A stretch of DNA of 64,000 nt from Yersinia kristensenii (lineage in GTDB: Bacteria; Pseudomonadota; Gammaproteobacteria; Enterobacterales; Enterobacteriaceae), in assembly GCF_900460525.1 (NCBI RefSeq), contig NZ_UHIY01000001.1, forward strand, positions 1,922,001-1,986,000, written 5' to 3'. The position numbers and the translations under genes are program-made. Below the pieces are notes generated by a model that was given only the letters and a program-made list of their open reading frames with translations, had not been told where the DNA came from and made no database searches. Below, one piece after another: positions 19,397 through 44,877 of this stretch (position 1 is its first letter; each line of letters begins with the position of its first letter).

Positions 19397-19409
19397 GATG
19401 GCTCCCGCC

Positions 19410-20579: not shown

Positions 20580-22796
20580 TTACCAGGAATAACTGACTGT
20601 TGCGGTCGCTATACGGCCACTGCCATAGAAGCAGGCGGCCATTTGTGCGCAACTGGCCACATATTCTTTGTTGAACACGTTGTTGACGTTAACCTGCAAA
20701 CTGGTGCCTTTCATGGCGGGCAGTGCTTGCCCCAGTTCATAGCGCATCATCCAGTCATATAGTGTTACCGCCGGGACTTTAAAGCTGTTTTTTCCATCGC
20801 CCCAACTGGTGCCGATATACCGCACGCCGACGCCGGTAGATAAGCCATCGACCACACCTTTATCAAAGCTATACATTCCCCACAGTGAGGCAGAATGATT
20901 GGGTGTCCGTGATGGCATTTTGCCTAATTCAGCGGCGTTCTTGGTTTCACGTACTTTGCCTTTCGTGTAGGTATAAGCGGCGATCAGGTTGATATTGTCG
21001 TTAATTTCACTGTTTAACTGGGTTTCTATCCCCTGCGATTGGATTTCACCAATTGGCACGCTGTAGGCCAGTGCTGAGTCGTATTCGCTGATATTCTTCT
21101 GCCGCAAATCATACAAAGCGGTGGTCAGCAGGGTGCTGCTGCCCGGAGGCTGATATTTCAACCCTAGCTCAACCTGACGTGCCGTTTTTGGATCCAATGC
21201 CCCGGTTCCCGGCGCGCCTTTAGCGGTGTTGGGTTCAAATGAGGTGCTGTAGCTGACATAGGGCGAGATACCGGAATCAAAGGCATACAACACGCCAGCC
21301 CGTCCAGTAAAGGCGTGGGAGTCTTGCTGATCTTGCGTGACACTTTTACGGTTCATGATTTTTAACTGCGACCAGTCATAGCGCCCGGACAACAAGAAAT
21401 TCCACTTATCCAGCTCAATTTGGTCTTGTAAATAAACCCCGACCTGATCGAGTTTGGTTAAATCACTGCTATTGAGCGACAGGTCACTGTCCTTGATATT
21501 CAGGCCATAAGAGGGGGATACCCAATCCAAATTGTAGGCTGGCAGCACTTTACCCATATAGAACAGGCTATCAATACGGGTGCGTTTATAATCTAACCCG
21601 GTCAGCACTGTGTGATTTAACTGTCCAGTCCAGAAGTCGGCTTGTAACTGGTTGTCGACCGCAAACTCACCGGTGTTCTGCCGTTCGATTTGCGGACGGC
21701 GGGTCATGGTGCGCTTATCAGCCAGTAAATCCATAAAGACCAGATATTTGTAATCTTGCTTGTTGTAGCTGTAACGCAGATTTTGGCGGAATTTAAAGGT
21801 GTCATTGATGTAATGCTCGAGGGCATAACCGACAGAGGTTTGCTCGCGTTCAGACTGCTCAAATGACGGGTCGCTGACGTTGAAATCGTAAGGTATTTTA
21901 CCGTAGGGGGTGCCAAACACCGTGCCGATGGCCGGTAAGAAGTTACGTGAGCCAGCTTTGGGTTCTTTCTGATAGCTGGTCAGCAAGGTAAAAGTGGTGT
22001 CTTCATTCGGGATGAAAGTCAATGCAGGGGCAATGGCAAAACGCTCCTGCTTATAGGTATTAACCGCATCATCCTGTGTTCTGCCAATCCCATTCAGGCG
22101 ATAGAGAACTTTACCCTCATCATCCAACACACCGCCAAAATCAAAGGCGGCTTCTGCCAGACTCTTATTTCCCGCCCCGACTTGCACTTTATGAATACTT
22201 TCGGCTGTCGGGCGTTTGCTGACCATATTGATCAGGCCACCTGGGTTGACTTGGCCGTAAAGCACAGATGCTGGGCCACGAACCACTTCAACGCGCTCCA
22301 GCAGCCACGGATCAATTTGGCCGCCGCGCCGTGCGCCACCCAGCGAGTTATAACTTAAACCATCCAGGAAACGCGGTGCGTAGCCGAAACCTCGAATGAT
22401 AACTTCGTCATTCATGTTAGAACCACCCCGATATTCCGGCACAACACCAGCGGTATAACGCAATGCTTGTGCCACGGAAGTCGCACCTTGCTCTTGCATT
22501 TGCTGGCTGGTAATCACGGAAACAGATTGTGGCGTGCGGATCAGCGGGGTGTCGGTCTTGGTGCCGGTTGAGCTATTTTTAGCGACGAAGCCATCATCTT
22601 GTTGCCCGCTACCTGCTTTGGCAACCACCACTAATTTATCTTCTTTTGTCGCTGTTGCTTCTTTCGCTGTGGTCGCCGCGAAAGCCGGTAGAACCGGTAT
22701 TAATGTTAGTGCAGAGGTTAATAATAAGGTTTTTGATGCATAGCTTGCCCTGAATGGCAATTTCCCTGGCATCTTCTTGCCTGAAATATCAAACAT
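20580..22796 (-). CDS. TonB-dependent outer-membrane siderophore receptor
   Basis: 738 residues. Signal peptide (residues about 20-40), a TonB box (DKLVVVA near residue 54), a plug domain (TPQSVSVITSQQMQEQG; VEVVRGPASVLYGQVNPGG), then a long beta-barrel ending in aromatic SYSW. It resembles the FhuA/FcuA/Fct group of receptors rather than FepA. Fct of Dickeya is the chrysobactin receptor and sits beside a catechol biosynthesis cluster, so a role in taking up the ferric siderophore made by this locus is likely, though a hydroxamate ligand cannot be excluded. The start has an AGGGA ribosome site six bases ahead. It diverges from the esterase gene. Confidence 0.92.
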   Translation of the reverse strand: MFDISGKKMPGKLPFRASYASKTLLLTSALTLIPVLPAFAATTAKEATATKEDKLVVVAKAGSGQQDDGFVAKNSSTGTKTDTPLIRTPQSVSVITSQQMQEQGATSVAQALRYTAGVVPEYRGGSNMNDEVIIRGFGYAPRFLDGLSYNSLGGARRGGQIDPWLLERVEVVRGPASVLYGQVNPGGLINMVSKRPTAESIHKVQVGAGNKSLAEAAFDFGGVLDDEGKVLYRLNGIGRTQDDAVNTYKQERFAIAPALTFIPNEDTTFTLLTSYQKEPKAGSRNFLPAIGTVFGTPYGKIPYDFNVSDPSFEQSEREQTSVGYALEHYINDTFKFRQNLRYSYNKQDYKYLVFMDLLADKRTMTRRPQIERQNTGEFAVDNQLQADFWTGQLNHTVLTGLDYKRTRIDSLFYMGKVLPAYNLDWVSPSYGLNIKDSDLSLNSSDLTKLDQVGVYLQDQIELDKWNFLLSGRYDWSQLKIMNRKSVTQDQQDSHAFTGRAGVLYAFDSGISPYVSYSTSFEPNTAKGAPGTGALDPKTARQVELGLKYQPPGSSTLLTTALYDLRQKNISEYDSALAYSVPIGEIQSQGIETQLNSEINDNINLIAAYTYTKGKVRETKNAAELGKMPSRTPNHSASLWGMYSFDKGVVDGLSTGVGVRYIGTSWGDGKNSFKVPAVTLYDWMMRYELGQALPAMKGTSLQVNVNNVFNKEYVASCAQMAACFYGSGRIATATVSYSW

Positions 22797-23234: not shown

Positions 23235-24560
23235 ATGAAATCAAAAGGATTGAGTGTGAGCACGACAAATGAACATTTTGATAGCCAGCGTTTGTTAGCC
23301 GACCCTCTGGTTGGTAGTGAGTCATGGTGGCAGCAGATTGCGCAGTGGGGGACACCGCTGGTGGAGCCAGTCGCTGCGGGTAAAGTGAAGCTAACGTTTC
23401 TCTGGCGAGAGCCGCCAGTCAAGGCGGGAGGCACTGCCTATAGCCGCGTCTATATTGATGTTAACGGCGTGACAGATCACCACAGTCCCAACCCGGAAAC
23501 GCTACAGCGCTTGGGCCAGAGCAATGTTTGGTATTGGCAGACAGAAGTGGAATCTGATTTCCGGGGCAGCTACAGCTTTATTCCTGTTGTTGAAGAACAC
23601 TGTTTGAATTTACCGGAGGGGACATCACAAGAGCGCCGTCAAGCGCAGCGCAATTGGTGGCTCTCATTGATGGATCTCGCTGAAAACGATCCGTTTAACC
23701 CTACCGCTCCCCATTACAGCTATCGCGGGAAACCACTTTCGGCGGTGCATTTAGCCGATGCTTTGCCCCAGACGGCCTGGCAGCCCATTGATGCGGGCCA
23801 AAAACTCCCAACGGACCCAAAACGGCTGCAACGGATTAGCTGGAATAGTGCGTTGCTCGGTAACAGCCGCAACGTGTGGATTTACCACACACTCGGTGCC
23901 GAAGATAAGACTGAGCGGCCGCTGGCTATCTTACTCGATGGTCAATATTGGGCGCATGGACAATCGATATTTGGCGTGCTGGACAGCGAAACTGACGCCG
24001 GGCGTCTGCCTGCCAGTGTGTATGTCTTAATCGACATCATCGACCAACCTCATCGCGCAGTGGAATTGCCCTGTAATCAGGATTTCTGGCAAGCGCTGCA
24101 AACGGAATTACTGCCACAAGTGGCCTTGCTGCAACCTTTCACTGATAAAGCCTCTCGCACCCTGGTCGCCGGACAGAGTTTTGGCGGGTTAGCTTCGCTG
24201 TATGCCGGATTACATTGGCCGCAGCGTTTTGGTTGTGTGCTGAGTCAGTCAGGTTCCTTTTGGTGGCCAGACGTCGACAATTTCAAAGCACTGACTGCCG
24301 GGACTGCCGAGCGGCAGGGCTGGCTGACAGAACAGGTTTATCAAGGTGTGGGCGCTGACCATCCATTAGATATCTTTATGGAAGCGGGCCGTCGCGAAGA
24401 TGTGATTTATCAAGTCAATGAGGCCATGAGTGAAGCACTGCGACAGGCCGGGCATCGGCTGCATTATCGAGTGTATTCAGGGGGCCACGACGCCTTGTGC
24501 TGGCGCGGCGGCTTGATTGATGGATTGCACTGTTTATTAGGTTCCTCTGATTCAAAATAA
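23235..24560 (+). CDS. fes: Fes/IroD-type ferric catecholate siderophore esterase
   Basis: 441 residues. An N-terminal Fes domain (FLWREPPVKAGG, RVYIDVNGVTDHH) is followed by an alpha/beta-hydrolase (esterase D-like) domain. The nucleophile Ser is in AGQSFGGLASLYAG (about residue 314) and the catalytic His in YSGGHDALCW. Such enzymes hydrolyse the serine ester bonds of ferric tri-catecholates in the cytoplasm to free iron. It is the first gene of a plus-strand operon with the MbtH-like gene and the NRPS. It is slightly longer than E. coli Fes (about 400). The start is a little uncertain; a GTG ten residues in is possible. Confidence 0.94.
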   Translation: MKSKGLSVSTTNEHFDSQRLLADPLVGSESWWQQIAQWGTPLVEPVAAGKVKLTFLWREPPVKAGGTAYSRVYIDVNGVTDHHSPNPETLQRLGQSNVWYWQTEVESDFRGSYSFIPVVEEHCLNLPEGTSQERRQAQRNWWLSLMDLAENDPFNPTAPHYSYRGKPLSAVHLADALPQTAWQPIDAGQKLPTDPKRLQRISWNSALLGNSRNVWIYHTLGAEDKTERPLAILLDGQYWAHGQSIFGVLDSETDAGRLPASVYVLIDIIDQPHRAVELPCNQDFWQALQTELLPQVALLQPFTDKASRTLVAGQSFGGLASLYAGLHWPQRFGCVLSQSGSFWWPDVDNFKALTAGTAERQGWLTEQVYQGVGADHPLDIFMEAGRREDVIYQVNEAMSEALRQAGHRLHYRVYSGGHDALCWRGGLIDGLHCLLGSSDSK

Positions 24561-24573: not shown

Positions 24574-24825
24574 ATGAACATTTATGCCATGAACAATGAA
24601 ACAGAAACACCCACCAACCCGTTTGATAATGAAGATCTGCCTTTTTTTGTGCTGATCAATGAGCAACAGCAATACAGCCTGTGGCCCCAAATTACGGCGA
24701 TCCCGGCAGGGTGGGAGATTGTTCATGGCCTGCAAAGCCGGGCCGATTGTGTGAAATATCTTGAGGCTAACTGGGTCGATATGCGCCCGGCCAGTTTGAT
24801 TCGGGCAGAGGCTGGCCTGCAATAA
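24574..24825 (+). CDS. ybdZ: MbtH-like protein (YbdZ), NRPS partner
   Basis: 83 residues with the MbtH-family core: NPFDNEDLPFFVLINEQQQY, then SLWP, IPAGWEIVHG and YLEANWVDMRP. The invariant tryptophans are present. MbtH-like proteins bind adenylation domains and make them soluble and active. It lies 13 bases after fes and 88 bases before the NRPS start. The first ATG at 24574 or a second at 24592 could be used. Both A domains of the downstream NRPS are likely clients. Confidence 0.96.
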   Translation: MNIYAMNNETETPTNPFDNEDLPFFVLINEQQQYSLWPQITAIPAGWEIVHGLQSRADCVKYLEANWVDMRPASLIRAEAGLQ

Positions 24826-24883: not shown

Positions 24884-24913
24884 CCTGTGTTGCCAAAAAA
24901 AGGAATACCCATC

Positions 24914-27900
24914 GTGTCAGAGGATTCAATCTCCCTTGTTGCTGTTGTCGAACTGCCCTTGGTGGCGGCACAGCCCGGCATTTGGTTCGCCGATCAGTTA
25001 AGTCAGCAAAAAAACATGTTTACCGTGGCCCATTACATTGAACTGGCGGGGCCGCTGGATCAGGCGTTATTTAGCCGCGCTGTTAGCCAAGGGTTGGCGG
25101 AGGCCGATACGCTTCATGCACGCTTTTTTGATGGAAACGACGGCCCGATGCAGCGCATACCCTTACAGTGTCATGCGGCTGACATGCCCGAGTTGGCGTG
25201 GTTGGATCTCAGTTCTCATGCTGATGGGCGACAGGTAGCACTGACATTGATGCGGGATGATACTGATGCCCCGTTACCCGTGGATGGTGAGGAGCCACTG
25301 TCTCGACATTGGGTTATTCGTGTTCCTGATGAAAATGGGAAGCCGCTATGGCTTTGGTATCAGCGTTATCATCATTTATTGCTTGATGGCTTTAGTTTCA
25401 CCGCCATTACCCGCCGTATCGCCGATATTTACACCGCATTGTTGCAAGGGAAATCTATCGGGGAATCTCCTTTTACTCGGTTTAGCGAGGTCGTCAGTGA
25501 ATATCTGGCGTATGTGGGGTCAGAAACCGAGCAACGCGATAAGCAATTTTGGCAACAACATACGGCGGATTTGCCCGCCGCACTCTCCCTGGCCCCCATG
25601 AACTCGCCCGTCCGGGCCGAACCAACGGATAATCGCGTCTTACGTCAGCGCATTAATATCGATTCTGACTTGTTTAGCGCTTTAACGGCGGGGGGCGCAG
25701 AGCAACGGCTGAGCGCCACAGAGATGGCGATGGCGCTGTTGCTGATTTATTTTGCCCGTATGAGCGGCGAAATGCGCTTGTCGGTCGGGTGCCCGTTTAT
25801 GCGCCGTATGGGATCTGCCGCTTTGACCGCCACCGGGCCGGTGGTGAATGTATTGCCGTTGCAGGTCACTTTGCGGCGCGAAATGCACATTGTTGATGTG
25901 GCGCGCGCAGTGGCGAGCGAGCTGAAAACGGTGCGCAAACATCAGCGCTATGAAGCAGAGCAATTGCGGCGTGATTTGGGAATGGTCGGTTCCCAGCGGG
26001 CGCTATATGGCCCGGTACTGAATTTTAAAATGTTCGATTTCGCCCTGAATTTTGGGGAGATAACCGGTGTTACTCATACTTTGGCCTCCGGTCCGGTCGA
26101 TGATGTCGAGTTTGACTTCTACCTCGACAACGGCCAGTTGACGTTGGAAATGCTGGCAAATGCGCAGCGCTATGACCTCGCCTGCTTACATCAGCATGGT
26201 GAGCGGATACAATTCTTGTTGCAGCAATTGGCGACCCAAGCTGAAATCACGGTGGGCGACCTCATATTGACGCCAGAGCAAGAGCTACAACGCATTGATA
26301 GTTGGGCTAAAGGCCCGCAATTAAGTCTGCCAGCCGGGGTGGTGTCGGTGTTGGATATTTTCCAGCAGCAGGTCACTCTGCAACCGGATGCTATTGCGGT
26401 GAGTTGTGGCAAGCAAAGTCTGACTTACCGCCAGCTTTCTGACCGCGCTGCCCAACTGGGGCGAACATTGATCGCCAGAGGTATTGGGGCTGATGATGTG
26501 GTCGCGATTGGTATTCCGCGAACTGTGGATTCGCTGGTGGCCATTTTGGGGGTTCTGACCAGTGGAGCAGCTTACATGCCGCTTGATCTGGATTACCCAA
26601 TGGAGCGTCTCGCCTTAATGTGTGAAGACGCCAGCCCGCGCTTACTCTTGGCGCATCAATCGACTGAAAGCTTGCTATCTCCGCTGGCTATCAATGGATT
26701 GGTAGCCATAGTTTGCCTGAATGAATCGCGCTTCCAGCAGGAATGTGCGGCTTGCTCTGCTCAGCCCATTACCGATACAGAACGCCGGTACCCCCTGCAC
26801 GGCGACCATCTGGCTTATATGATTTATACCTCCGGCTCGACTGGGCGACCAAAAGGAGTGATGAGCACCCACGGTGGGTTAGTCAACTTGCTGGTGGCGC
26901 ACCGCACGCACCTGTATGGGCCAGCGATGGCGGAATTTAAGCAGCATAATACCCGCCGGATGCGCGCAGGGCATACCGCCTCATTCTCTTTTGATTCTTC
27001 TTGGGAACCGCTGTTCTGGATGATGATGGGCTGCGAGATGGTTATCTTTGATGAGGAAATGCGCCGTGATGCTTATGCATTGGTACAGATGATGGATCAG
27101 ACGCCAATCGACACCATGGATATTACCCCGTCATTCTTAACGCAAATGATAGAGAGCGGTTTGCTGGACGCCGGGCGTCATCGGCCCGCCTTTATGATGA
27201 TTGGCGGTGAAGCCGCAACACCGCGTTTGTGGGAGCAACTGAAACAGCATCCTGAGCTGAATGTGGTGAACTTCTACGGCCCGTCGGAATACACCATTGA
27301 TACTCTTGGTGCGAATACCAAGGTGGCGGCGCAGCCGGTGATTGGCCGCCCAGTAGCAAATACTGAAGTCTATTTGCTCGATAGCCAACTGACCAAAGTG
27401 CCAATTGGCGCGGTAGGGGAGTTATATATTGCCGGAAAAGGGCTGGCTCGTGGTTATTTGAACCGGCCGGATTTAACGGCGGCGCGTTTTGTTGCCAACC
27501 CTTTCCGTCATGGCGAGGTGATGTATCGCAGCGGTGATTTGATGCGCTGGACGGCGGAGGGGCAATTGGATTTTGTCGGGCGCACTGACCACCAGATAAA
27601 GGTGCGCGGTTTCCGGGTTGAACTGGGTGAAGTCGAGAATGCGCTGGTGGCTTTGCCGGAAGTCAGTAGCGCGGTGGTTATCGCCGAAGCTACCGGCGCA
27701 ACCCATCGGCTTATTGGTTACTGTACGGTGCCTGATGTGCAACAGCGTGATAGTGAGGATCTCAACGCCCGGCTGATGGATCAACTGGCTGTTACCCTGC
27801 CAGATTATATGGTGCCCGCGATCCTGATGGTGCTGGATGAAATGCCGCTGACGATCAATGGCAAGATTGACCGGCAAGCACTGCCCGCCCCACAACACCA

Positions 27901-30900
27901 GCAACAGCTCAGCAGCCGGGCATCACAGACTGCGCAGGAAACGCTTTTGTGTGATGCTATCGCCAATTTGCTGCGTGTGGGCAATATTGGGGCGGAAGAT
28001 GATTTCTTCCAGCTCGGAGGCGACAGTATTTCCGCCATGGCGCTAGGGAGCACTTTGCGCCGCGCCGGTTTCCGCCTGGCTCCGCGAGAGATTTTTGCTT
28101 TGCGCACCCCGGCTAAAATGGCGCTGGCTTTACAGCCATTGGTGGATTCACCCGTGGCGGTACACTCTGCGGCTACCGTAGCCTTATCAGAAACACTGTG
28201 GCAGGCTGCGGGTGAAAAATATGGCCCAATAGCCGATATTCTGCCGGTATTGCCGCTCCAGCAAGGTTTGCTATTCCATGCTCAGTTAGGGCAAGAAGCC
28301 AATAATTACAATGCCATCAGCCGTTTTGACCTTCAAGGTGCATTAGACATTGAGTGCTTGCGTGATGCACTGGAAAACCTACTGCGGCGCTACCCGCAAC
28401 TGGGGGCTATTTTTGACAGTGAGTTGCACAGTGAATCATTACAAATTCTGCCGCAGACTCAAGATAGCGCCCGCCGCTGGCCGTGGCAGCAATATGACCT
28501 GAGCGCATTGACACGGGATCAACAGATTGCCAAAACCCAGCAATTGGAGCGCAAAGGGCTGGCACGGGATCTGATGAGTGAGACGGCAGGGACATTAAAA
28601 CCTTTACTGATGGCTATTTTGATCCGTTACAGCGCCGAGCGCCATTCGTTGATCATCATCGCGCATCATCTGGTGGGAGATGGCTGGTCATCGGCAATCT
28701 TGCTGCATGATTTGCTGCATCTCTACGGCAACACGCCGGAATTGCCGCCGCTGAGTGTCAGTTATGGTGATTTAATCCGCCGCATGACGGCGCGTGACTT
28801 GCAACCAGAACGGCTGGCCTGGCAACAGGCTATTCGTGGTGTCGTGCCAACTATTCTGTATCCAGAAGCTCATGCCGCAGGCCCGGTGCATGAATGGGTT
28901 ATCGCGCTGGACAGCAAACTGGAAGCGGCACTGACCGAGCTGCAACGGCGTGAGGGCATCACACTCAATACCTTATTGCAAGGGGCTTGGGCAACCTTAT
29001 TGGGTGTGCTCAGTGGGCGTGATGATGTGGTATTCGGCTCGCCGGTTTCTGGCCGTTTTAGTGAAATCGAGGGTATCGAACAGCAGGTTGGGCTGTTCAG
29101 TAACACCCTCCCGGTGCGGGTGAAATTGCAACCGCAATTGCCACTATTAGCGCAGTTAGCCGCATTGCAGCAGCAACAGATCCAATTACTGGAGCACGAT
29201 GGTCTGGGCTTGGGGGAGATCCAGCGCCTGGCTGGAGCGAATACCTTATTTGATACCTTGTTGGTGGTCGAAAACTACACAGAAAACAATCAATTGCATC
29301 AAAAATCTTTCAACGGTTTGCGGTGTGATGCACTGAATAATCGCGGCTATACCCATTACCCACTGACCCTATTGGTGCTGCCGGGCGAGAAGTTGCATCT
29401 GCAACTGGAATACCGTGATGCGGTCAGCGATCCGCAGAGACTGGCTCAGCGCTTGGTGATGTTGCTCGAATATTTGGTTTGGCAGCCTGAGTTGCCGTTA
29501 TCTGCACTGAATTTACTGACTGCCGATGAGAAAGCACTGTTGGCTGCCGCCAATGACACCGCTGTTGCCCTACCTGCGCTGACGCTATGTGATTTGATGA
29601 ATCAGCAGTCACAGCTGACCCCCCAAGCTATCGCCTTATTGGATGCAGATGAAACACTGACTTATCAGCAGGTTAATCAGCAGGTTCAACTGCTGGCTGC
29701 CCATTTACGTCAACAGGGCGTGCAGCCCGGTGACCGGGTTGCTGTAGCGCTGCCGCGTTCAGTTAATCTCAGCCTGGCACTAATGGCTATTTTGGCGGCG
29801 GGGGCGGCTTATTTGCCGCTGGATACCGGCTATCCTGATGACCGCCTGGCTTACATGATAAGTGATGCCAATCCACGGCTCCTGATGACGGTCAGCTCAT
29901 TGGCTGAGCGCTTTACCGGCCAGGCTCCGCTTTTGCTGTTGGATCAGCTGTCTGTACAGGATCAACCGGCGCTGTTGCCCGCCGTCCAGATAACACCAGA
30001 CCATCCCGCTTATTTGATTTATACCTCCGGCTCGACTGGGCGGCCAAAAGGTGTGGTGGTCTCACATGGTGCTATCGTTAACCGCTTGTTATGGATGCAA
30101 AATGAGTATCCGCTGGGCGGCGATGACGTGGTATTACAAAAAACGCCGTGCAGTTTTGATGTCTCGGTGTGGGAGTTTTTCTGGCCGATGATAACCGGAG
30201 CAAGATTGGTCATGGCACCGCCAGAAGCTCATCGTGACCCAGAAGTTCTGCGTAGCTTAATAGAGGATTATGGCGTCACTACCGCTCACTTTGTGCCCTC
30301 AATGCTGGCCGCTTTTGTCAGCGCCATGCAGGGGCAACACCAACCTTGCCAGAGCTTACGCCGGGTATTTTGCAGTGGTGAGGCCTTGTCGCGCGAGCTA
30401 TCAGAGCTATACCAACAAATTTTTGCTGCTCCATTGCATAATTTATATGGCCCAACTGAAGCGGCGGTGGATGTCACTTATCAACCGGCCTATGGTGACG
30501 CTCTGGCGCGAGTGACCGGCAGCAGTGTGCCCATCGGCAAGCCGGTGTGGAACACCCAACTGCGTATTCTCGACAGTATGCTGCGGCAAGCCCCGGTCGG
30601 CATTGCAGGCGATCTCTACTTATGCGGCGTGCAACTGGCGCAGGGTTACCATGCCCGTCCAGACCTGACTGCCAGCCGTTTTGTTGCCGATCCTTATGAT
30701 CGTGGGCAGCGGATGTACCGCACCGGTGATATCGCCCGCTGGCTGCCGGATGGCACGGTAGAATATTTGGGGCGCAGTGACGATCAACTGAAAATTCGTG
30801 GGCAACGTATTGAATTAGGTGAGATTGAATCCGCGCTATTGGAGTTGCCTTCCGTCCAGCAAGCGGTGGTGCATGCCCGCAGCTTGGCGGGGGGAGAAGG

Positions 30901-32113
30901 GGCCTTGGCCGGTGCTGATACTCGTCAGCTGGTCGGTTATATTGTGCCAGTTGCCGGGGCAGAAAATATCGATTTGGAGGCTTTGCGTAGTCAGCTTAGT
31001 GAACGTTTACCGGCGCATATGGTGCCGGTAGTTATCGTCAGCCTGAGTGCTCTCCCACTGAGTGCCAATGGCAAACTGGATCGCAAGGCATTACCGGCAC
31101 CGGTGAATCAGGTGGGCAGTGGTGGGCGCGCCCCACAAGCCGGTTTGGAAAGCCTGATTGCCGGATTATTTGCCCAGTTGCTGGGGGTAGAATCTGTCAG
31201 TGCGGATGATGATTTCTTCGCACTTGGCGGGCATTCTTTGTTAGCAATGCGCTTAGCGGCTGACCTGCGCCGTGAGCTGCAACAGCCCGTCGCGGTGGGG
31301 CAGGTGATGGTGGCCTCGACGGTGGCAGCATTGGCCACCGCATTGAGTCAGCCGCAATCAGATAAACAGGCGGGTAAAGCCGGTTTCAGTGAAGTATTGC
31401 CGCTGCGCAATGGCAGCGGTAACCCACTATTTTGTTTCCATCCGGCTTCAGGTTTTGCCTGGCAGTTCAGTTTGTTACCGCGTTATTTGCCGGGTAGCTG
31501 GCCGGTGCTGGGAATTCAGTCTCCGCGCCCTCATGGGGCCATTGCTACCTGTCAGGATATGGACAGTTTATGTGACCATCACTTGGCGACGTTACGCCGG
31601 GTGCAGCCACAGGGGCCCTATCACCTGATGGGATACTCACTGGGAGGCACCGTGGCGCAGGCGATGGCGGTAAAATTACAGGCGCAGGGTGAGGAAGTGG
31701 CCTTCTTGGGGCTATTAGATACCTATCCGCCGGAAACTCAGGACTGGAACGCACCGATTGAGGCTGAAGTATTGGAGGAAGTTGAGCGCGAGCGGGCATT
31801 ATTTATGGCGGTAGCAGGGGACGAGCAGGAAGAGAAGCGAGAGATGTTTGCGCAAATTCAGGCAAACTACGACGATTCTGTCGGCTTGCTATCAGGGGCT
31901 AAAACACCGGTTTATGAGGGGGAAACCACGTTATTTGTCGCGACTCAAACCTTACCCGCGGGTGAAACTCCCGAAGATATTTGGCGGCCATATGTGAAGC
32001 AGCTGCGGACATATCATCTGGATTGTTCACATATCACGATGATGTCGCCGGAGACATTAAAAGTGTTGGGGCCTATTTTGCAGAAAGTATTTAGTGGAAT
32101 TGGGTCATTGTAG
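24914..32113 (+). CDS. entF: EntF-like dimodular NRPS (C-A-T-C-A-T-TE)
   Basis: About 2399 residues, nearly twice E. coli EntF (1293). The GTG at 24914 is chosen because AAGGA lies nine bases ahead and the sequence then matches EntF (LPLVAAQPGIW). Domains: C1 with HHLLLDG near 152; A1 with IYTSGSTGRPKG near 635; T1 with GGDSIS near 1035; C2 with HHLVGDG near 1250; A2 near 1700; T2 with GGHSLL near 2105; thioesterase with GYSLGG near 2240 and His in CSHITMM. By eye the A2 code is D-V-W-H-F-S-L-V-D, the serine code. A1 reads about D-S-E-D-I-G-F-I-D, with acidic residues that suggest Lys, Orn or Arg. No epimerase domain follows T1. The product is probably (DHB-basic amino acid-Ser)3, as in the frederiksenibactin/turnerbactin group. 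Confidence 0.93.
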   Translation: MSEDSISLVAVVELPLVAAQPGIWFADQLSQQKNMFTVAHYIELAGPLDQALFSRAVSQGLAEADTLHARFFDGNDGPMQRIPLQCHAADMPELAWLDLSSHADGRQVALTLMRDDTDAPLPVDGEEPLSRHWVIRVPDENGKPLWLWYQRYHHLLLDGFSFTAITRRIADIYTALLQGKSIGESPFTRFSEVVSEYLAYVGSETEQRDKQFWQQHTADLPAALSLAPMNSPVRAEPTDNRVLRQRINIDSDLFSALTAGGAEQRLSATEMAMALLLIYFARMSGEMRLSVGCPFMRRMGSAALTATGPVVNVLPLQVTLRREMHIVDVARAVASELKTVRKHQRYEAEQLRRDLGMVGSQRALYGPVLNFKMFDFALNFGEITGVTHTLASGPVDDVEFDFYLDNGQLTLEMLANAQRYDLACLHQHGERIQFLLQQLATQAEITVGDLILTPEQELQRIDSWAKGPQLSLPAGVVSVLDIFQQQVTLQPDAIAVSCGKQSLTYRQLSDRAAQLGRTLIARGIGADDVVAIGIPRTVDSLVAILGVLTSGAAYMPLDLDYPMERLALMCEDASPRLLLAHQSTESLLSPLAINGLVAIVCLNESRFQQECAACSAQPITDTERRYPLHGDHLAYMIYTSGSTGRPKGVMSTHGGLVNLLVAHRTHLYGPAMAEFKQHNTRRMRAGHTASFSFDSSWEPLFWMMMGCEMVIFDEEMRRDAYALVQMMDQTPIDTMDITPSFLTQMIESGLLDAGRHRPAFMMIGGEAATPRLWEQLKQHPELNVVNFYGPSEYTIDTLGANTKVAAQPVIGRPVANTEVYLLDSQLTKVPIGAVGELYIAGKGLARGYLNRPDLTAARFVANPFRHGEVMYRSGDLMRWTAEGQLDFVGRTDHQIKVRGFRVELGEVENALVALPEVSSAVVIAEATGATHRLIGYCTVPDVQQRDSEDLNARLMDQLAVTLPDYMVPAILMVLDEMPLTINGKIDRQALPAPQHQQQLSSRASQTAQETLLCDAIANLLRVGNIGAEDDFFQLGGDSISAMALGSTLRRAGFRLAPREIFALRTPAKMALALQPLVDSPVAVHSAATVALSETLWQAAGEKYGPIADILPVLPLQQGLLFHAQLGQEANNYNAISRFDLQGALDIECLRDALENLLRRYPQLGAIFDSELHSESLQILPQTQDSARRWPWQQYDLSALTRDQQIAKTQQLERKGLARDLMSETAGTLKPLLMAILIRYSAERHSLIIIAHHLVGDGWSSAILLHDLLHLYGNTPELPPLSVSYGDLIRRMTARDLQPERLAWQQAIRGVVPTILYPEAHAAGPVHEWVIALDSKLEAALTELQRREGITLNTLLQGAWATLLGVLSGRDDVVFGSPVSGRFSEIEGIEQQVGLFSNTLPVRVKLQPQLPLLAQLAALQQQQIQLLEHDGLGLGEIQRLAGANTLFDTLLVVENYTENNQLHQKSFNGLRCDALNNRGYTHYPLTLLVLPGEKLHLQLEYRDAVSDPQRLAQRLVMLLEYLVWQPELPLSALNLLTADEKALLAAANDTAVALPALTLCDLMNQQSQLTPQAIALLDADETLTYQQVNQQVQLLAAHLRQQGVQPGDRVAVALPRSVNLSLALMAILAAGAAYLPLDTGYPDDRLAYMISDANPRLLMTVSSLAERFTGQAPLLLLDQLSVQDQPALLPAVQITPDHPAYLIYTSGSTGRPKGVVVSHGAIVNRLLWMQNEYPLGGDDVVLQKTPCSFDVSVWEFFWPMITGARLVMAPPEAHRDPEVLRSLIEDYGVTTAHFVPSMLAAFVSAMQGQHQPCQSLRRVFCSGEALSRELSELYQQIFAAPLHNLYGPTEAAVDVTYQPAYGDALARVTGSSVPIGKPVWNTQLRILDSMLRQAPVGIAGDLYLCGVQLAQGYHARPDLTASRFVADPYDRGQRMYRTGDIARWLPDGTVEYLGRSDDQLKIRGQRIELGEIESALLELPSVQQAVVHARSLAGGEGALAGADTRQLVGYIVPVAGAENIDLEALRSQLSERLPAHMVPVVIVSLSALPLSANGKLDRKALPAPVNQVGSGGRAPQAGLESLIAGLFAQLLGVESVSADDDFFALGGHSLLAMRLAADLRRELQQPVAVGQVMVASTVAALATALSQPQSDKQAGKAGFSEVLPLRNGSGNPLFCFHPASGFAWQFSLLPRYLPGSWPVLGIQSPRPHGAIATCQDMDSLCDHHLATLRRVQPQGPYHLMGYSLGGTVAQAMAVKLQAQGEEVAFLGLLDTYPPETQDWNAPIEAEVLEEVERERALFMAVAGDEQEEKREMFAQIQANYDDSVGLLSGAKTPVYEGETTLFVATQTLPAGETPEDIWRPYVKQLRTYHLDCSHITMMSPETLKVLGPILQKVFSGIGSL

Positions 32114-32713: not shown

Positions 32714-33985
32714 TCACCCGCCGACTTGATCGGCCTTTTCCCCCTCATCGGACACCTCGTCCCCCATGGTCGCGCGGCGTAATGTCCCGCCACAGACGGC
32801 AATAACACCTCCTACCGTGGCCGCGATCATGCCAAAGGTCAAGGCGCTAAGCGCCGGGGCCATGACTTTCGCCAACACACCTAACCCCAATGCACCGAAT
32901 GATTCACCCGCAACAAACTGCACGTTCCATAGGCTGTTCACCCGCCCTAATAAGGCATCCGGTGTATGAGTTTGCACTAAGGTATATTGCAGCAATCCGC
33001 TGATAGACCCCAGATAGCCATATAGCAACAAACCGGGCAGGGCCAGATAGAAGTTATTGGTCAGTCCTAATGTTCCAATGGCTAAAAAAGCGCCAATAGA
33101 ACTGTACATCAGCACCATTCCAGGGCGGTGAACCTGATTGACCCAACCACTGGTAAAGGCGCCGATTGTCGCCCCCAGTGGCACCACCGAGTACATTAAA
33201 CCAATCTGTGACGCGCCCACATGATAGGTGTTCTCTGCCAGCGCGGGGAACAAAATACGAATAGCCCCAATCATGCTGACCAATGTCCCCAGCAACACCA
33301 CAGAGCCCACGACTTTATGCCGCAATACGAAGGAAATCCCCGTCGCCAATGCCCGTAACGGGTGTTCATGCTGGCTGGTCGTCGGTTTCATTGCGGGCAA
33401 ACTTAACAGTGGCAACAGCGTTAACATCGTCCCCACCGCAGCAATCCCGTAGTTCCAACCCACCCCACCGTAGACAATCACCAGGCCACCAATTGCCGGG
33501 GAAATTACCGAGCCAAAACGCACCGTCAGCATGCTTAACCCACCCGCTGCGGCCAGATTTTCTCGCCCGACCAGTGAGGGGGTTGCTGCCATCAAGGCGG
33601 TCATACCGAGTGCGCCAAAGAACCCATCCCAGGCCGCTAAAACATACAAAACCCACAATGAGGGTGTGAGAGAGAACGCATTGATACTTAAGCCAATAAA
33701 CCCTAAACCACAGGTAAAACGGGCGAATAAAATCAGTTTGCGTCGATCAAATCTGTCCGCTAATACGCCCCCCAGCAGTAGGCCAATAAACATCCCTAGC
33801 CCATCCAAGGTGACGGCCAACCCCACTTGCAAGGTTGATCCAGTCATCATTTGTATCTGCACCGGCACCGCAACCGTGAGCATTCCCAGCCCTAAAATGG
33901 AAATAAAACGGGCAAAAAATACGGCTCGAAAATTAGCATTTTCTCTTAACAGGCTGAAATCCAAAAGAATCGGTGATTTTGCCAT
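32714..33985 (-). CDS. entS: EntS, siderophore exporter of the MFS
   Basis: 423 residues with about twelve membrane segments. The start MAKSPILLDFSLLRENANFR and the motifs LADRFDRRKLILFARF (MFS loop 2-3) and LLGRVNSLWNVQFVAGE match EntS, which exports enterobactin across the inner membrane. It diverges from fepD across a Fur-box region, as in E. coli. Here the exported molecule is expected to be the triscatechol made by the dimodular NRPS. The C-terminus is hydrophilic (DEVSDEGEKADQ). Confidence 0.95.
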   Translation of the reverse strand: MAKSPILLDFSLLRENANFRAVFFARFISILGLGMLTVAVPVQIQMMTGSTLQVGLAVTLDGLGMFIGLLLGGVLADRFDRRKLILFARFTCGLGFIGLSINAFSLTPSLWVLYVLAAWDGFFGALGMTALMAATPSLVGRENLAAAGGLSMLTVRFGSVISPAIGGLVIVYGGVGWNYGIAAVGTMLTLLPLLSLPAMKPTTSQHEHPLRALATGISFVLRHKVVGSVVLLGTLVSMIGAIRILFPALAENTYHVGASQIGLMYSVVPLGATIGAFTSGWVNQVHRPGMVLMYSSIGAFLAIGTLGLTNNFYLALPGLLLYGYLGSISGLLQYTLVQTHTPDALLGRVNSLWNVQFVAGESFGALGLGVLAKVMAPALSALTFGMIAATVGGVIAVCGGTLRRATMGDEVSDEGEKADQVGG

Positions 33986-34114: not shown

Positions 34115-34151
34115 ACTAATGATAATCAAAACGATAATAACAATCATTTGT
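34115..34151. promoter_or_regulatory. Two overlapping Fur-box-like sites between entS and fepD
   Basis: ACTAATGATAATCAAAACG (34115-34133) has twelve consecutive matches to the Fur consensus core, and GATAATAACAATCATTTGT (34133-34151) matches at about 14 of 19. Together they cover the centre of the divergent entS/fepD promoter region, 46 bases before fepD and 129 bases before entS. Confidence 0.8.
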
Positions 34152-34197: not shown

Positions 34198-35265
34198 ATG
34201 TCAGCGACTGATTCCCCAAACCAATCTTTACCAAAACAGCTAAAACCAAGCCCCGTTGTGGCTGAAAACGCACAATCCCGTCGGGGACTTTTGCTGTTAC
34301 TCAGCATAGTTATATTGATGCTCGTGATGGTTGCCAGCCTAATGCTCGGTGCCAAAGCCATCCCTTTCTCTGTCGTCTGGCAAAGTTTGCTGGGCGAACA
34401 CAGTAATGTCGACAGCGTTTTAATACTGGAATCCCGCCTACCCCGTACCTTGATTGGTGTGCTAGCCGGTGCTGCACTTGGGTTATCGGGCGCAGTGATT
34501 CAAGCATTGACCCGCAATCCTCTGGCGGACCCAGGGATTTTGGGTGTCAATGCTGGGGCCAGCTTTGCCGTGGTGATTGGCATCACTGTTTTCGGCGTTC
34601 ATGCCATTCATGGCTATATGATTTCTGCGTTTATTGGCGCGATGGTCACCACACTGGTGGTGTATTGGGTAGGAACACAGGGCAGTGGGCGAGTTAACCC
34701 CTTGCGGCTGACCCTCTCCGGTGTCGCTATCGGGGCGGTATTACTGGGGATTTCTAGCGGCATATCACTGACACACCCGCAGGTTTACGATCGCGTTCGC
34801 TTCTGGCAAGCCGGTTCGCTGGATATCCGCGATATGTCAGTGGTCGTGGCGGTTGCGCCCGCCATTCTTTTCGGCTGTGTGATTGCCTTGTTGCTGGCAC
34901 GCCCTCTCAATGCTATGCATATGGGGGAAGATTTAGCCGCCGCAATTGGCGCGCACATAGCTCAGACCCAATTTTGGGCAGTGGTCACCGTGACCTTACT
35001 CTGCGGTGCTGCTACCGCCGCTGTTGGCCCAATTGCCTTTGTCGGCTTGATGGTGCCGCATATTGCGCGCTGGATTGTCGGGCCGAATCAATGTTGGATA
35101 CTCCCATTCACCTTGGTGATGACCCCGATTTTGTTATTGGTATCGGATATTGTTGGCCGCTTTCTGGTGCCCGGTGAATTGCGAGTCTCAATTGTCACGG
35201 CGTTTATTGGCGCGCCCTTGTTGATCTGGTTGGTACGCCGCAACAAAAGGATGACCGCGCTATGA
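34198..35265 (+). CDS. fepD: FepD, ferric siderophore permease subunit
   Basis: 355 residues, a FecCD-family inner-membrane permease. Typical features are LESRLPRTLIGVLAGAALGLSG, NPLADPGILGVNAGA and, near the end, GPIAFVGLMVPHIARWIVG. It pairs with FepG to form the channel of the ABC importer for ferric catecholates. It starts the fepDGC operon and overlaps fepG by 4 bases (ATGA). The first 25 residues before the membrane part are hydrophilic. Confidence 0.96.
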   Translation: MSATDSPNQSLPKQLKPSPVVAENAQSRRGLLLLLSIVILMLVMVASLMLGAKAIPFSVVWQSLLGEHSNVDSVLILESRLPRTLIGVLAGAALGLSGAVIQALTRNPLADPGILGVNAGASFAVVIGITVFGVHAIHGYMISAFIGAMVTTLVVYWVGTQGSGRVNPLRLTLSGVAIGAVLLGISSGISLTHPQVYDRVRFWQAGSLDIRDMSVVVAVAPAILFGCVIALLLARPLNAMHMGEDLAAAIGAHIAQTQFWAVVTVTLLCGAATAAVGPIAFVGLMVPHIARWIVGPNQCWILPFTLVMTPILLLVSDIVGRFLVPGELRVSIVTAFIGAPLLIWLVRRNKRMTAL

Positions 35266-36305
35266 AATCCGCCACTCCGCCGTGGCTATTGGGCCGCCCT
35301 GATGGCCCAATAAATCTGCGCATCCAACCCCGTAGTTTGATTGTTGGCGGTTTGCTGTTACTGGCCTGCTTATTGGCGGGTTTGCTGGCATTAATGGTCG
35401 GGACTTTGCCGCTCTCTTCCGGGCAAGTATTTGCAGCCTTATTCGGCCAGGCCAGTGGTGCAGCGGATATTATCGTCAACCAATGGCGGTTGCCCCGCGC
35501 CATGATGGCGTTGATTTTTGGTGCTGCACTGGGTATCAGTGGCGCTATATTTCAATCATTAGTGCGCAATCCCTTAGGTAGCCCAGATATCATCGGCTTT
35601 AACGCCGGTGCTTATACCGGTGCACTGGTGGCGATTACGCTGTTCAACGGCAACTATTTTGAGGTTGCCAGTAGTGCGCTGGGGGGCGGGTTACTGTCTG
35701 CCCTCGCGGTGTATTTGTTGGCCTATCGCCAAGGGATTCAGGGCTTTCGGCTGATTATTGTCGGCATCGCCATTGGTGCCATGTTAACGGCATTCAATAC
35801 CTGGCTGACTATCACCGCTTCATTAGAGGCAGCGATGACCGCTGCTGCGTGGGGAGCCGGTTCGCTCAATGGCCTGACGTGGGCCAAGGGCTTGCCGTCG
35901 GTGATATTCATCATTATCGCCACGGTGATAGCTATGCTATTGAGCCGCCGTATGCCGCTGCTGGAAATGGGCGATGATGCGGCGGGCGCTTTGGGCGTTC
36001 CGGTCGAAAAAACCCGTTTGGGCTTGATGGCTATTGGTGTGATTTTGATGGCAGCGGTCACGGCGGCGGCGGGGCCGATTTCCTTTATTGCATTAGCCGC
36101 GCCACAGATTGCAAAACGCCTGTTGGGCACATCGTCAGTGACGTTGACCGCGTCTGCGCTGATGGGGGCATTGTTATTGATCGCCGCGGATTTGTGCGCT
36201 CAGCACCTATTTTTACCTAATCAATTGCCCGTGGGCGTGATCACCATCAGCATCGGCGGCTTATATCTTATTTGGCTTTTAATCCGAGAGTCCGGACGAT
36301 CATGA
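35262..36305 (+). CDS. fepG: FepG, ferric siderophore permease subunit
   Basis: 347 residues, the second FecCD-family permease. It shows WRLPRAMMALIFGAALGISG, NPLGSPDIIGFNAGAYTGA and GPISFIALAAPQIAKRLLG, matching FepG. Overlaps with fepD (4 bases) and with the fepC start (ATGA-type) show a translationally coupled operon. It is about the usual FepG length (330) with a slightly longer N-terminus. Confidence 0.96.
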   Translation: MKSATPPWLLGRPDGPINLRIQPRSLIVGGLLLLACLLAGLLALMVGTLPLSSGQVFAALFGQASGAADIIVNQWRLPRAMMALIFGAALGISGAIFQSLVRNPLGSPDIIGFNAGAYTGALVAITLFNGNYFEVASSALGGGLLSALAVYLLAYRQGIQGFRLIIVGIAIGAMLTAFNTWLTITASLEAAMTAAAWGAGSLNGLTWAKGLPSVIFIIIATVIAMLLSRRMPLLEMGDDAAGALGVPVEKTRLGLMAIGVILMAAVTAAAGPISFIALAAPQIAKRLLGTSSVTLTASALMGALLLIAADLCAQHLFLPNQLPVGVITISIGGLYLIWLLIRESGRS

Positions 36306-37114
36306 GTAATGCTAGCTCTGCCACCTTACCTATATCGCGTTTACAGGCCGATGCTCTGACATTGGGTTATGACGGCAAGATAATCAGCGAGAACCTGAGT
36401 GTCGCCATTCCTGATGGTGAGTTTACCGTTATTGTCGGCCCCAATGCTTGTGGCAAATCGACACTGCTGCGCGCCTTGAGCCGTTTGCTGAAACCGCAAG
36501 CGGGTCAGGTGATTTTAGACGGTAAGAATATTGCCAGCCTTGATACCCGGCACGTTGCGCGCCATTTGGGCTTATTGCCGCAAAGTTCGCAAGCTCCGGA
36601 TGGCATCAGTGTGCTGGATTTAGTCGCGCGAGGCCGCTATCCCCATCAGAAATTGTTACAGCAATGGACACAAACCGACAGGTTGGCCGTCAGTCATGCC
36701 ATGCAAGCCACGGGGGTCAGTGAACTGGCGGACAGGTCGGTGGATGCGCTATCCGGCGGGCAACGTCAACGGGTTTGGATAGCCATGGTGCTGGCGCAAC
36801 AAACACCATTGTTATTGTTAGATGAGCCAACCACCTATCTAGATATCGCCCATCAAATTGATTTGCTTGAGTTATTTAGCAGTCTGAATCAACAACATAA
36901 TCATACGCTAGTGGCCGTCCTGCATGATCTCAATCATGCTTGCCGTTATGCCACCCACATTATCGCTATGCGCGATGGGCAGATAGTAACGCAAGGTAAA
37001 CCGCGCGAAGTGATCACCGCCGATCTAGTCGAGCAGGTTTTTGGTATGCCGTGTTTGATTATTGATGATCCGGTTTCGCATACGCCATTGGTGATACCGA
37101 AAGGGCGGTTTTAG
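36302..37114 (+). CDS. fepC: FepC, ATPase of the ferric siderophore importer
   Basis: About 270 residues from the ATG at 36302, which overlaps the fepG stop as in a coupled operon; a longer frame starting at 36272 reads through the fepG end and is not favoured. Walker A GPNACGKST, signature LSGGQRQR, Walker B LLLLDEPT and the switch His in AVLHDLNH are all intact. It powers FepDG uptake of the ferric siderophore delivered by FepB. Length matches E. coli FepC (271). Confidence 0.97.
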   Translation: MSNASSATLPISRLQADALTLGYDGKIISENLSVAIPDGEFTVIVGPNACGKSTLLRALSRLLKPQAGQVILDGKNIASLDTRHVARHLGLLPQSSQAPDGISVLDLVARGRYPHQKLLQQWTQTDRLAVSHAMQATGVSELADRSVDALSGGQRQRVWIAMVLAQQTPLLLLDEPTTYLDIAHQIDLLELFSSLNQQHNHTLVAVLHDLNHACRYATHIIAMRDGQIVTQGKPREVITADLVEQVFGMPCLIIDDPVSHTPLVIPKGRF

Positions 37115-37326: not shown

Positions 37327-38370
37327 TTAAGGTTTAGTCTTAAACATCCCCTCGATCCGTGCCAATAAATTACTCGCACTGTAATAATCCAACCGGAACG
37401 TATCATAGCCCGCGGCATAAACCCGATCATGTTCAATTGCTGGGATATGAGCTAAAAACTTATTACTTTTCAGGGCGTCAATCGCCGGTTGATCCCCGGA
37501 AAATAGCAAAATAGTCTCGCCGTTAAGGCCCTCGGCCAGCTTCTCGCCACCCAGTTGGATGATATCTTTGCGGTGCCCCATGCTGGTGTTGCCCTTCACG
37601 GCATCAGGGACTTCTGCCAGTGTGAAACCCAATTCCTGCAACAGTTTTCCCTGCGCGGAACTCTCGGTCCACAAATTAGCAGTGCTGCCCGCCGCTTGAT
37701 AAACAAAGGCTGATGTCGGTTGCGGTGGTAGCGTAATATTCTGCTTTACTTCATTGATTCGATTAGTAAATTTCTCAATAATTTGCTGTGCATCGGCCTC
37801 GTGTCCTGTTGCTTGCCCCAGCACGATGGCTAATTCTTGCCAACTCTTATCATCGTAATTAATGACTAATGTGGGAGCTATAGCTGACAGTTGCTCATAC
37901 AACTTCAACGCCGAATCCCCGCCAGTGGCAGAAATAATAATTAAGTCCGGATTCATTCCCGCGACAGCTTCGGCATTTGGCTCTGTCTGGTACATTGGCA
38001 CCAGTTTTTTGGCCTGTGCAACATCTGACCATTGGGTAAAGAAACCTTGATGATCAGCCACCGTGGTGTCAGGCACGGTCGCCCCACTGGCAATCACCGG
38101 AGCATTGATAGCCAGTAAAGTCCCGGTAATGGTGATACTCGTGGACACAATCCGTGTGGGTGGATGTGTTAGTACTACTGGGCCTTTGGCCGTTTCTACG
38201 GTGCGAGTCCATGCAGCTGTACCCTCACTACCTGATGAGGGGGCTTGTTGATCCTTAGTTTCTTCTGCCGGTTTACAGGCAGACAAGCAGAGAACAAGGC
38301 CAAAAAGACCCAATTTAGTCAATGTTGAACGCCATTTTTTATGCTGAATGTAATTGATATCAAAGGACAT
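37327..38370 (-). CDS. fepB: FepB-like periplasmic ferric siderophore binding lipoprotein
   Basis: About 347 residues from the ATG at 38370. The frame is open 73 codons further upstream, but that part runs through the Fur-box promoter region and is not a plausible leader. The N-terminus (KLGLFGLVLCLSACKPAEE) has a lipobox LSAC, so it should be a lipoprotein, whereas E. coli FepB is soluble. The body is a class III binding protein (TRIVSTSITITGTLLAINAPV, AVAGMNPDLIIISATGGDS). It passes the ferric siderophore from the receptor to FepDGC. Confidence 0.93.
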   Translation of the reverse strand: MSFDINYIQHKKWRSTLTKLGLFGLVLCLSACKPAEETKDQQAPSSGSEGTAAWTRTVETAKGPVVLTHPPTRIVSTSITITGTLLAINAPVIASGATVPDTTVADHQGFFTQWSDVAQAKKLVPMYQTEPNAEAVAGMNPDLIIISATGGDSALKLYEQLSAIAPTLVINYDDKSWQELAIVLGQATGHEADAQQIIEKFTNRINEVKQNITLPPQPTSAFVYQAAGSTANLWTESSAQGKLLQELGFTLAEVPDAVKGNTSMGHRKDIIQLGGEKLAEGLNGETILLFSGDQPAIDALKSNKFLAHIPAIEHDRVYAAGYDTFRLDYYSASNLLARIEGMFKTKP

Positions 38371-38501
38371 AACGGCATTTTCTCTTTCTATTTTAAGCCC
38401 CAGTTCTGGGGGGATATATAAATAAGATTTATTAATAAATACATTTACATTGATTGACAATGTGAGTGCCAGGTCGTAATTTACCACGCACAAAAGGGAA
38501 T

Positions 38502-38520
38502 GATAGTAATTATTATTACC
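38502..38520. promoter_or_regulatory. Fur-box-like site between fepB and entC
   Basis: GATAGTAATTATTATTACC matches the 19-bp Fur consensus at about 15 positions. It lies 25 bases before the preferred entC start and 132 bases before fepB. A TTGACA hexamer at 38454-38459 on the plus strand may belong to one of the promoters. The site falls inside the longest open frame for entC, which argues for a start further downstream. Confidence 0.75.
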
Positions 38521-38544
38521 ATTTGCATTGTGATGGAGGTCTTT

Positions 38545-41423: not shown

Positions 41424-41433
41424 GGATTTTATG

Positions 41434-42342: not shown

Positions 42343-43151
42343 TGGCGGCTAATCAGGTTTCATCCGCAAAAAACACCCGTACAATCAGTCCAGCTACACC
42401 GATGGATTTTACCGGTAAACGGGTGTGGGTCACTGGCGCGGGGCAGGGTATTGGCTATCAAATTGCCAGCCAGTTTGTCGCGCTGGGCGCAGATGTCGTC
42501 GGGTTGGATAAAACCTTTTCGGCGGCGCAAAACTCTCCTTTCACCACGGCTTTACTGGATATTAGCAACCCGCAGCAAGTGGAACTGGTGTGCCAGCATT
42601 TATTGAGCCAGGTTCCACGTATCGATATTCTGGTGAATGGTGCTGGGATTCTCCGTCTGGCAGAGACCGAGGCGCTGAGTCTCGAAGATTGGCAACAGTG
42701 TTTTAATGTGAATGTTTCCGGCACGTTTTATCTCTTGCGCCAGTTAATTCCACAGTTCAAACAGCAGCGTTTTGGCGCGGTAGTGACTATTAGCTCCAAT
42801 GCTGCTCATGTGCCGCGCATTCAAATGTCAGCTTATTGTGCTTCTAAAGCTGCATTGACCAGCTTCAGCCATTGTGTCGGGTTGGAGTTAGCGGCCTACG
42901 GTGTGCGGTGCAATGTGGTCTCCCCCGGATCTACCGATACCCCAATGCAGCGCGGCATGTGGCGCAGCGAAGATGCTCAGCAGCAGACGATTGCCGGTTT
43001 TCCACAGCAATATAAATTGGGGATCCCGTTAGGGAAAATCGCCACTCCGCAAGAAATTGCCCACACCGTAGTGTTTCTGGCCTCAGATTTAGCCAGTCAT
43101 ATTACGATGCAAGATATTGTGGTAGACGGCGGCGCAACGCTGTCTGCCTGA
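42342..43151 (+). CDS. entA: EntA, 2,3-dihydro-2,3-dihydroxybenzoate dehydrogenase
   Basis: 269 residues, a short-chain dehydrogenase. NAD site TGAGQGIGYQIA, the NAG motif (VNGAGILRL), the catalytic Ser in VTISSNAAHV, Tyr-x3-Lys in SAYCASKAAL, and PGSTDTPMQ typical of EntA. It oxidises dihydro-DHB to DHB, finishing the precursor. It has about 20 more N-terminal residues than E. coli EntA (248); an ATG at residue 22 (MDFTGKRVWVTGAG) fits that length better. It is the last gene of entCEBA. Confidence 0.96.
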   Translation: MAANQVSSAKNTRTISPATPMDFTGKRVWVTGAGQGIGYQIASQFVALGADVVGLDKTFSAAQNSPFTTALLDISNPQQVELVCQHLLSQVPRIDILVNGAGILRLAETEALSLEDWQQCFNVNVSGTFYLLRQLIPQFKQQRFGAVVTISSNAAHVPRIQMSAYCASKAALTSFSHCVGLELAAYGVRCNVVSPGSTDTPMQRGMWRSEDAQQQTIAGFPQQYKLGIPLGKIATPQEIAHTVVFLASDLASHITMQDIVVDGGATLSA

Positions 43152-44852: not shown

Positions 44853-44877
44853 CTGCGCAAATAAAAAGGATAAGACC

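Follow-up and report, generated by a model that had tools for sequence, protein, structure and literature searches.

Background

EntF, the synthetase of enterobactin, is a single module, and the residue carried by ruckerbactin is L-Arg. The described system closest to the one considered here is that of frederiksenibactin, a siderophore of Yersinia frederiksenii ATCC 33641 whose lysine was found to be L by Marfey's method and whose iron complex was assigned the Delta configuration (PMC8480324). The available portions of that report tie the synthetase FreF to the compound through the strain and genome prediction, and describe neither a freF mutant nor an A-domain assay (PMC8480324). According to the same portions chrysobactin contains D-Lys, and an excerpt of the turnerbactin report gives L-Orn for that siderophore (PMC3795760). 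From excerpts, too, the ruckerbactin receptor is said to be similar to Dickeya's ferrichrysobactin receptor rather than to the receptor that E. coli uses for enterobactin (PMC6770984), and a 'ferrichrysobactin receptor' protein of Y. ruckeri rises 10-15-fold in iron limitation (PMC5054536).

We describe here a siderophore locus in a stretch of 64,000 nucleotides from Yersinia kristensenii (contig NZ_UHIY01000001.1, positions 1,922,001 to 1,986,000 of the forward strand), referred to throughout as the window. A sequence-only reading had predicted that its dimodular synthetase makes a triscatechol of DHB, a basic L-amino acid and L-Ser, not enterobactin. Taken as a whole, the evidence indicates that the window very probably holds a frederiksenibactin locus. 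This adds one more Yersinia to those with a siderophore locus whose product has been proven by chemistry; frederiksenibactin is already known, so the molecule itself is not new. A literature search for frederiksenibactin together with kristensenii, a search outside whose scope subscription journals mostly lie, found no paper.

Results and discussion

Gene content of the locus

The features of the locus are collected in Table 1. As in the fre locus, entC, entE, entB (with its carrier domain) and entA stand beside the NRPS gene. The initial ~85 codons of the fepB-like ORF are probably non-coding, and the true start of the entC-like gene probably lies downstream of 38500. No NCBIfam match at E 1e-20 was found for the entB-like protein. 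The phosphopantetheinyl-transferase family has two matches elsewhere in the genome.

Table 1. Features of the siderophore locus, in window positions
Feature	Position	Strand	Evidence
TonB-dependent receptor, FhuA/FoxA-like, ferrichrysobactin-receptor kind	20580..22796	-	Pfam plug and barrel; FhuA model 661/803 bits, under cut-off
fes-like ferric-siderophore esterase	23235..24560	+	NCBIfam enterochelin esterase 577 bits, cut-off 222
MbtH-like protein	24574..24825	+	PF03621, E 1.4e-22
Dimodular NRPS, FreF orthologue, C-A-T-C-A-T-TE, 2399 aa	24914..32113	+	Pfam, motifs, alignment
C1, starter condensation, expected DHB user (approximate limits)	24959..26248	+	Pfam; HHLLLDG at ~25364
A1, putative lysine adenylation, DSEDIGFIDK (approximate limits)	26351..27883	+	Aligned code, identities, tree
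T1, LGGDSI (approximate limits)	27947..28153	+	Motif
C2, DCL-like condensation, HHLVGDG, no E before (approximate limits)	28235..29542	+	Alignment, PDB ranking, tree
A2, putative serine adenylation, DVWHFSLVDK (approximate limits)	29603..31093	+	Pfam, aligned code
T2, LGGHSL	31157..31345	+	Pfam, motif
TE, thioesterase, presumed role in product oligomerisation and release (approximate limits)	31421..32086	+	PF00975, motifs
entS-like exporter	32714..33985	-	NCBIfam EntS 604 bits, cut-off 324
Fur-box-like overlapping sites, entS/fepD intergenic	34115..34151	.	4-6 mismatches of 19; mostly 6-base steps; suggestive only
fepD-, fepG-, fepC-like ABC importer, three genes	34198..37114	+	fepD and fepG models above cut-off; fepC best, 392/497 bits
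fepB-like binding protein	37327..38589	-	NCBIfam FepB 473 bits, cut-off 205, match from residue 90
entC/freC-like isochorismate synthase	38500..39777	+	TIGR00543 310 bits, cut-off 225; EntC model 404/624 from residue 45
entE/freE-like DHB-AMP ligase	39774..41423	+	NCBIfam 915 bits, cut-off 783
entB/freB-like isochorismatase with C-terminal carrier domain	41431..42342	+	PF00857, PF00550
entA/freA-like dihydro-DHB dehydrogenase	42342..43151	+	NCBIfam 412 bits, cut-off 312

The receptor gene is divergent from fes, and its product, whose best NCBIfam models (FhuA and FoxA) both fall below cut-off, is likely to take up a ferric siderophore. In the scheme that the gene content suggests, EntS would export the siderophore, return of the iron complex would fall to the receptor of ferrichrysobactin type together with the FepBDGC-type importer, and Fes would open the siderophore esters. 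Scanning at up to 6 mismatches with what we take to be the Fur-box consensus gave 49 sites against 10-21 in five Markov sequences, an excess inflated by AT-rich intergenic DNA; other Fur-box-like sites of the locus are at 23104-23128 and 38496-38526. CusCBA-like metal efflux genes adjoin the siderophore locus at 13447-19507, and their membrane-fusion protein has a CusF-like domain.

Domain architecture of the synthetase

The synthetase ORF spans 24887..32113 (+) and encodes 2408 aa counted from its first GTG; read from the GTG at 24914 it gives 2399 aa, equal in length to a Y. kristensenii protein (P0002). Among the best 120 of 7389 protein matches, the nearest one with a species name comes from Yersinia kristensenii, at 98%. 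The synthetase gene of a known producer matches it end to end at 86% identity, which rules out a reading frame that arose by chance. Pfam finds Condensation, AMP-binding, AMP-binding_C and PP-binding twice each and Thioesterase once, and the motif positions yield the order C-A-T-C-A-T-TE, exactly the layout first read from the sequence. The TE carries GYSLGG with Asp and His further downstream, which we take to be its catalytic triad.

The synthetase was compared in an alignment of 136 rows, comprising the window protein, the best 120 of the 7389 matches and 15 of 18 locus translations (L015-L017, with a longest frame under 2200 residues, were left out); some of these rows are one gene entered twice. 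In the window synthetase 63 residues separate the T1 motif from the beginning of C2, where the spacing is 58-77 in rows that lack an E domain (n=57) and 505-536 in rows that have one (n=79), and the claim that no E follows T1 is confirmed by this gap. The E between T1 and C2 by which the chrysobactin synthetase CbsF is recognised is missing. Profile searches of the scanned locus genes found neither an E domain nor an amino-acid racemase; a nearby match to an 'epimerase' family is the D-erythronate dehydrogenase.

A protein search of the genome (4.73 Mb in three contigs) returned one full-length synthetase match, the window's own. A second NRPS-like locus lies at G000:C1:4613439-4616785 (L002, L003, L005), where an ORF has A, T and Male-sterility-type (NAD_binding_4) domains; beside it is an adenylation domain split over separate ORFs.

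Substrates of the adenylation domains

The A1 and A2 codes in Table 1 come from an alignment in which A2, the Ser domain, served as the internal reference, and coincide in all nine letters of each with the codes earlier read by eye. The A2 code is DVWHFSLVDK in 135 of the 136 rows and DVWHFSLIDK in the other. The A1 code DSEDIGFIDK occurs in 15 of 136 rows, every one E-less, and those with names are Yersinia, FreF (L012) among them; that of Y. thracica (L009) is one letter off. DSEDIGYIDK is the A1 code of 43 of the 79 E-containing rows, Dickeya included, and of five E-less rows.

These comparisons support lysine as the substrate of A1 and serine as that of A2. The triscatechol first predicted, as opposed to enterobactin, is thereby favoured, and its 'basic' residue narrows to lysine because FreF, from the frederiksenibactin producer, has the same ten-residue A1 code and 86% identity in A1. 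It is very unlikely that A1 activates Orn or Arg instead, as in turnerbactin or ruckerbactin: Asp is indeed common at several code positions, and six of ten letters are shared with TnbF (DSDDGGLVDK) and five with the Y. ruckeri A1 (DADDVGLVDK), but with FreF all ten letters of both codes agree, and Y. ruckeri has only 50% identity in A1.

Other A1 codes are found in E-less dimodular synthetases with a Ser-type A2: DSENCGVVEK, in which the named rows are Methylocystis, Methylosinus and kin; DSLDIGLVDK, in which they are Azospirillum; and DADELGYVDK in Brenneria.

Configuration of the lysine

The sequence-only reading had reasoned that without an E domain the residue should stay L. The conclusion stands as the best reading, but the argument from the absence of E is incomplete by itself, since T1 (LGGDSI) and C2 look like the domains that ordinarily stand on either side of an E. 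An LGGDSI motif in a T domain is typical ahead of an E domain; in our alignment GGDSI occurs in T1 of 134 of 136 rows, E-containing and E-less alike. For the type of C2 we relied on its PDB ranking, because 11 further C domains that we had assembled proved too distant and too badly labelled for the purpose (the two closest to C2, both in L019, have no E ahead within their ORF). The ten best chains, from McyB, BacC, SrfA-C (surfactin), PvdL and TycB, score 153-173 bits and the next chain 92. In McyB, SrfA-C and TycB the C domain is presumably preceded by an E, and in the search output an E-like stretch ahead of C is visible for BacC only. By this ranking C2 appears to resemble domains placed after an epimerase, though no E is present here. 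A DCL-like C2 without E is a real oddity, but an already known one, given the precedent in the excerpted account of turnerbactin (PMC3795760).

C2 was also considered as a dual E/C domain. Such domains have the N-terminal motif HH[I/L]xxxxGD, according to an excerpt of their description (PMC1894796); the window C2 reads FHAQLGQEANNY at that position, and the candidate was rejected for want of the motif.

A D configuration, with C2 either needing or making D-Lys, would suit both the LGGDSI of T1 and the DCL-like type of C2, and is nevertheless highly improbable: FreF is arranged alike and the product of its strain has L-Lys (PMC8480324, in part), TnbF also has a DCL-like C2 and gave L-Orn (PMC3795760, in part), and C2 is without the dual E/C motif. 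The first two of these points make L-Lys the best reading.

A possible marker of this C2 type is the residue before DG in its motif. In a large E-less clade described below, 20 of the 23 representatives have G there and the other 3 have A; the 54 E-containing representatives have V (52) or A (2), and among the remaining 8 without E the residue is I in 6 and V in 2. Four further C2 sites separate the 23-row clade from the E-containing group by a criterion of our own. Because the 23 representatives form a single clade the marker counts as one event, not 23, and because other E-less rows are without it, it is to be taken as a lead only. If the pattern holds, it could serve to predict product stereochemistry in cases that the E-domain rule by itself leaves undecided.

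Histories of A1 and C2

Quick trees of A1 and of C2 were built from 85 representatives. Aligned with other A domains, as had been proposed at the outset, A1 clusters with those of chrysobactin type: one clade (SH-aLRT 99) holds 36 E-containing, chrysobactin-type rows and six E-less rows, namely the window, FreF, Y. massiliensis, Y. nurmii, Serratia ficaria (P0010) and a sixth row, P0011. The Y. ruckeri A1 falls outside this clade. In the C2 tree the same six rows and Y. ruckeri form a 7-row clade (SH-aLRT 99), nested with Brenneria and Methylocystis-like rows in the 23-row E-less clade (SH-aLRT 98), which stands apart from the chrysobactin-type C2 domains.

Forcing the seven rows together with the 37 chrysobactin-type rows in C2 was marginally rejected (AU p 0.042), and forcing the same seven, Y. 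ruckeri included, into one A1 clade gave AU p 0.014. These tests are not proof, since their groups were picked after the trees were seen, both trees were built quickly and the A1 of Y. ruckeri sits on a long branch. Between the window and Y. ruckeri the identity is 51% in C1, 50% in A1, 72% in C2 and 80% in A2, and to Dickeya P0016 it is 69% in A1 and 53% in C2. Towards Y. nurmii the window has 53% in C1 and 75% in A1; as C1 is low there too, it is A1 alone that stands out in Y. ruckeri. The trees are thus suggestive, with marginal statistical support, of partly separate histories of A1 and C2, and suggest an exchange of A1 among these synthetases. The outgroup of the A1 tree did not form one side of a branch. 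On the C2 tree the fewest changes in the presence of E number 2 with the references and 3 without them, and may be losses or gains of E.

We also considered the Yersinia synthetase as a chrysobactin synthetase with a recent loss of E, a view that suits A1 and suits C2 less, as C2 groups with E-less domains.

A further reading, less likely than not, is that in this family amino acid and stereochemistry depend on two parts, each with a history of its own: an A1 that can be exchanged, and a lineage of C2 domains able to take L donors. If so, the Yersinia/Serratia synthetases would combine an L-type chassis with a lysine A1 related to the one in chrysobactin synthetases of D type, Y. ruckeri would have the same chassis with a different A1, and the change from Val to Gly/Ala before the C2 DG, with the four other changes, would be part of L-donor acceptance.

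Distribution of the synthetase and the receptor

A full-length synthetase match (65-100%) was found in 12 of 25 Yersinia genomes, and the same 12 have an EntE match of 76-100%; one genome without the synthetase has an EntE match of 43% only (G007), and G019 has a second EntE match, at 42%. With a dimodular synthetase in 12 of 25 Yersinia genomes, enterobactin gene names can mislead. The receptor (E 1e-250 or better) is present in 17 of the 25, including all 12 synthetase holders; the five with the receptor and no full-length synthetase (G001, G007, G008, G012, G018) could use the siderophore of their neighbours.

Of 295 genomes sampled from the order, 22 had a synthetase match with E no worse than 1e-250; in 12 of these 22 it covered module 2 only. 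Four genomes (G201, G309, G262, G028) have a receptor relative of 47-55% about 2 kb from a synthetase judged E-containing by a stretch of 430-480 residues between its two matched parts. Among E-less synthetases of other A1 type, G195 and G118 gave no receptor match and G188 a 35% match elsewhere, which disfavours a general link between receptor and synthetase. A plasmid search found no record at 60% identity or above.

Form of the product

The expected product is a putative trimer of DHB-L-Lys-L-Ser; the [M+H]+ values computed for monomer, dimer and trimer are 370.161, 721.304 and 1072.447. The TE with its motifs might be thought to close a cyclic trilactone as the main product, and D. chrysanthemi EC16 has the D-Lys analogue in both cyclic and linear forms (PMC8480324, in part). 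In Y. frederiksenii, by the same partial source, only the linear trimer was detected, and the TE of FreF is 92% identical to that of the window, so that a cyclic main product is unlikely and a linear trimer is predicted.

Comparison with known systems

Module 2 and the TE resemble EntF (best PDB match 5ja1), with which the Ser code is shared, but the EntF chain in PDB has 1295 residues against the 2399 aa of the window protein. Enterobactin is an exceedingly improbable product: most accessory genes do bear enterobactin names in NCBIfam, yet the synthetase has two modules, the genome search found no second EntF-like gene over module 2, and the receptor is FhuA/FoxA-like and not the FepA of an enterobactin locus. 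A FepA-family receptor is encoded elsewhere in the genome (G000:C1:503839; 10 of 14 plug-domain loci scanned). At G000:C1:2022012-2022311 (L071) a TonB-receptor plug match has an internal stop and is perhaps a broken receptor gene.

TnbF of Teredinibacter turnerae T7901, in the published portions available to us, has 2399 aa, two modules and a TE, no E and a DCL-like C2, and differs in the A1 code, which there serves L-Orn (PMC3795760). The synthetase of Y. ruckeri ATCC 29473 (L014), presumed to make ruckerbactin, has the same E-less arrangement, with T1, C2, A2, T2 and TE 69-82% identical to those of the window, and is set apart by its A1; among the papers listed for ruckerbactin, none was a structure paper by title. 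For chrysobactin the Dickeya relatives P0016 and P0035 stand in for CbsF of D. dadantii 3937 in the comparison. These two relatives share the A2 code and nine of ten letters of the A1 code (DSEDIGYIDK), with A1 67-69% identical, but have an E between T1 and C2 and a C2 only 51-53% identical. The window receptor is of the same kind as the Dickeya ferrichrysobactin receptor (PMC6770984, in part).

The fre locus of Y. frederiksenii ATCC 33641 (L012; PMC8480324) is the nearest of all, and the early naming of frederiksenibactin as a relative proved sound. FreF has the domain order, T1 and C2 type of the window synthetase. The locus genes through entA have Y. frederiksenii counterparts, with identities of 86% for the NRPS, 93% for the receptor, 84% for entC, 89% for entE and 86-87% for entB/entA, and the receptor gene sits at the same position of the locus. 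The fepCGD-entS block is inverted relative to the window: behind the NRPS gene the window and Y. thracica (L009) have entS reversed and fepDGC forward, and the block is the opposite way round in L010, L011, L012 and L014; fepDGC was not found in the examined stretch of L013. Behind entA the Y. frederiksenii locus continues with a stand-alone adenylation gene (L080:3914-5407; TIGR01733, 329 bits) and a long ORF taken by eye for a chemoreceptor, whereas in the window entA is followed by genes for an MFS transporter and a D-erythronate dehydrogenase (43152-46063), and the two loci differ in that the adenylation gene is absent at that place. With the Y. frederiksenii product known, and NRPS, receptor and DHB genes 84-93% identical, the same siderophore is to be expected from Y. 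kristensenii.
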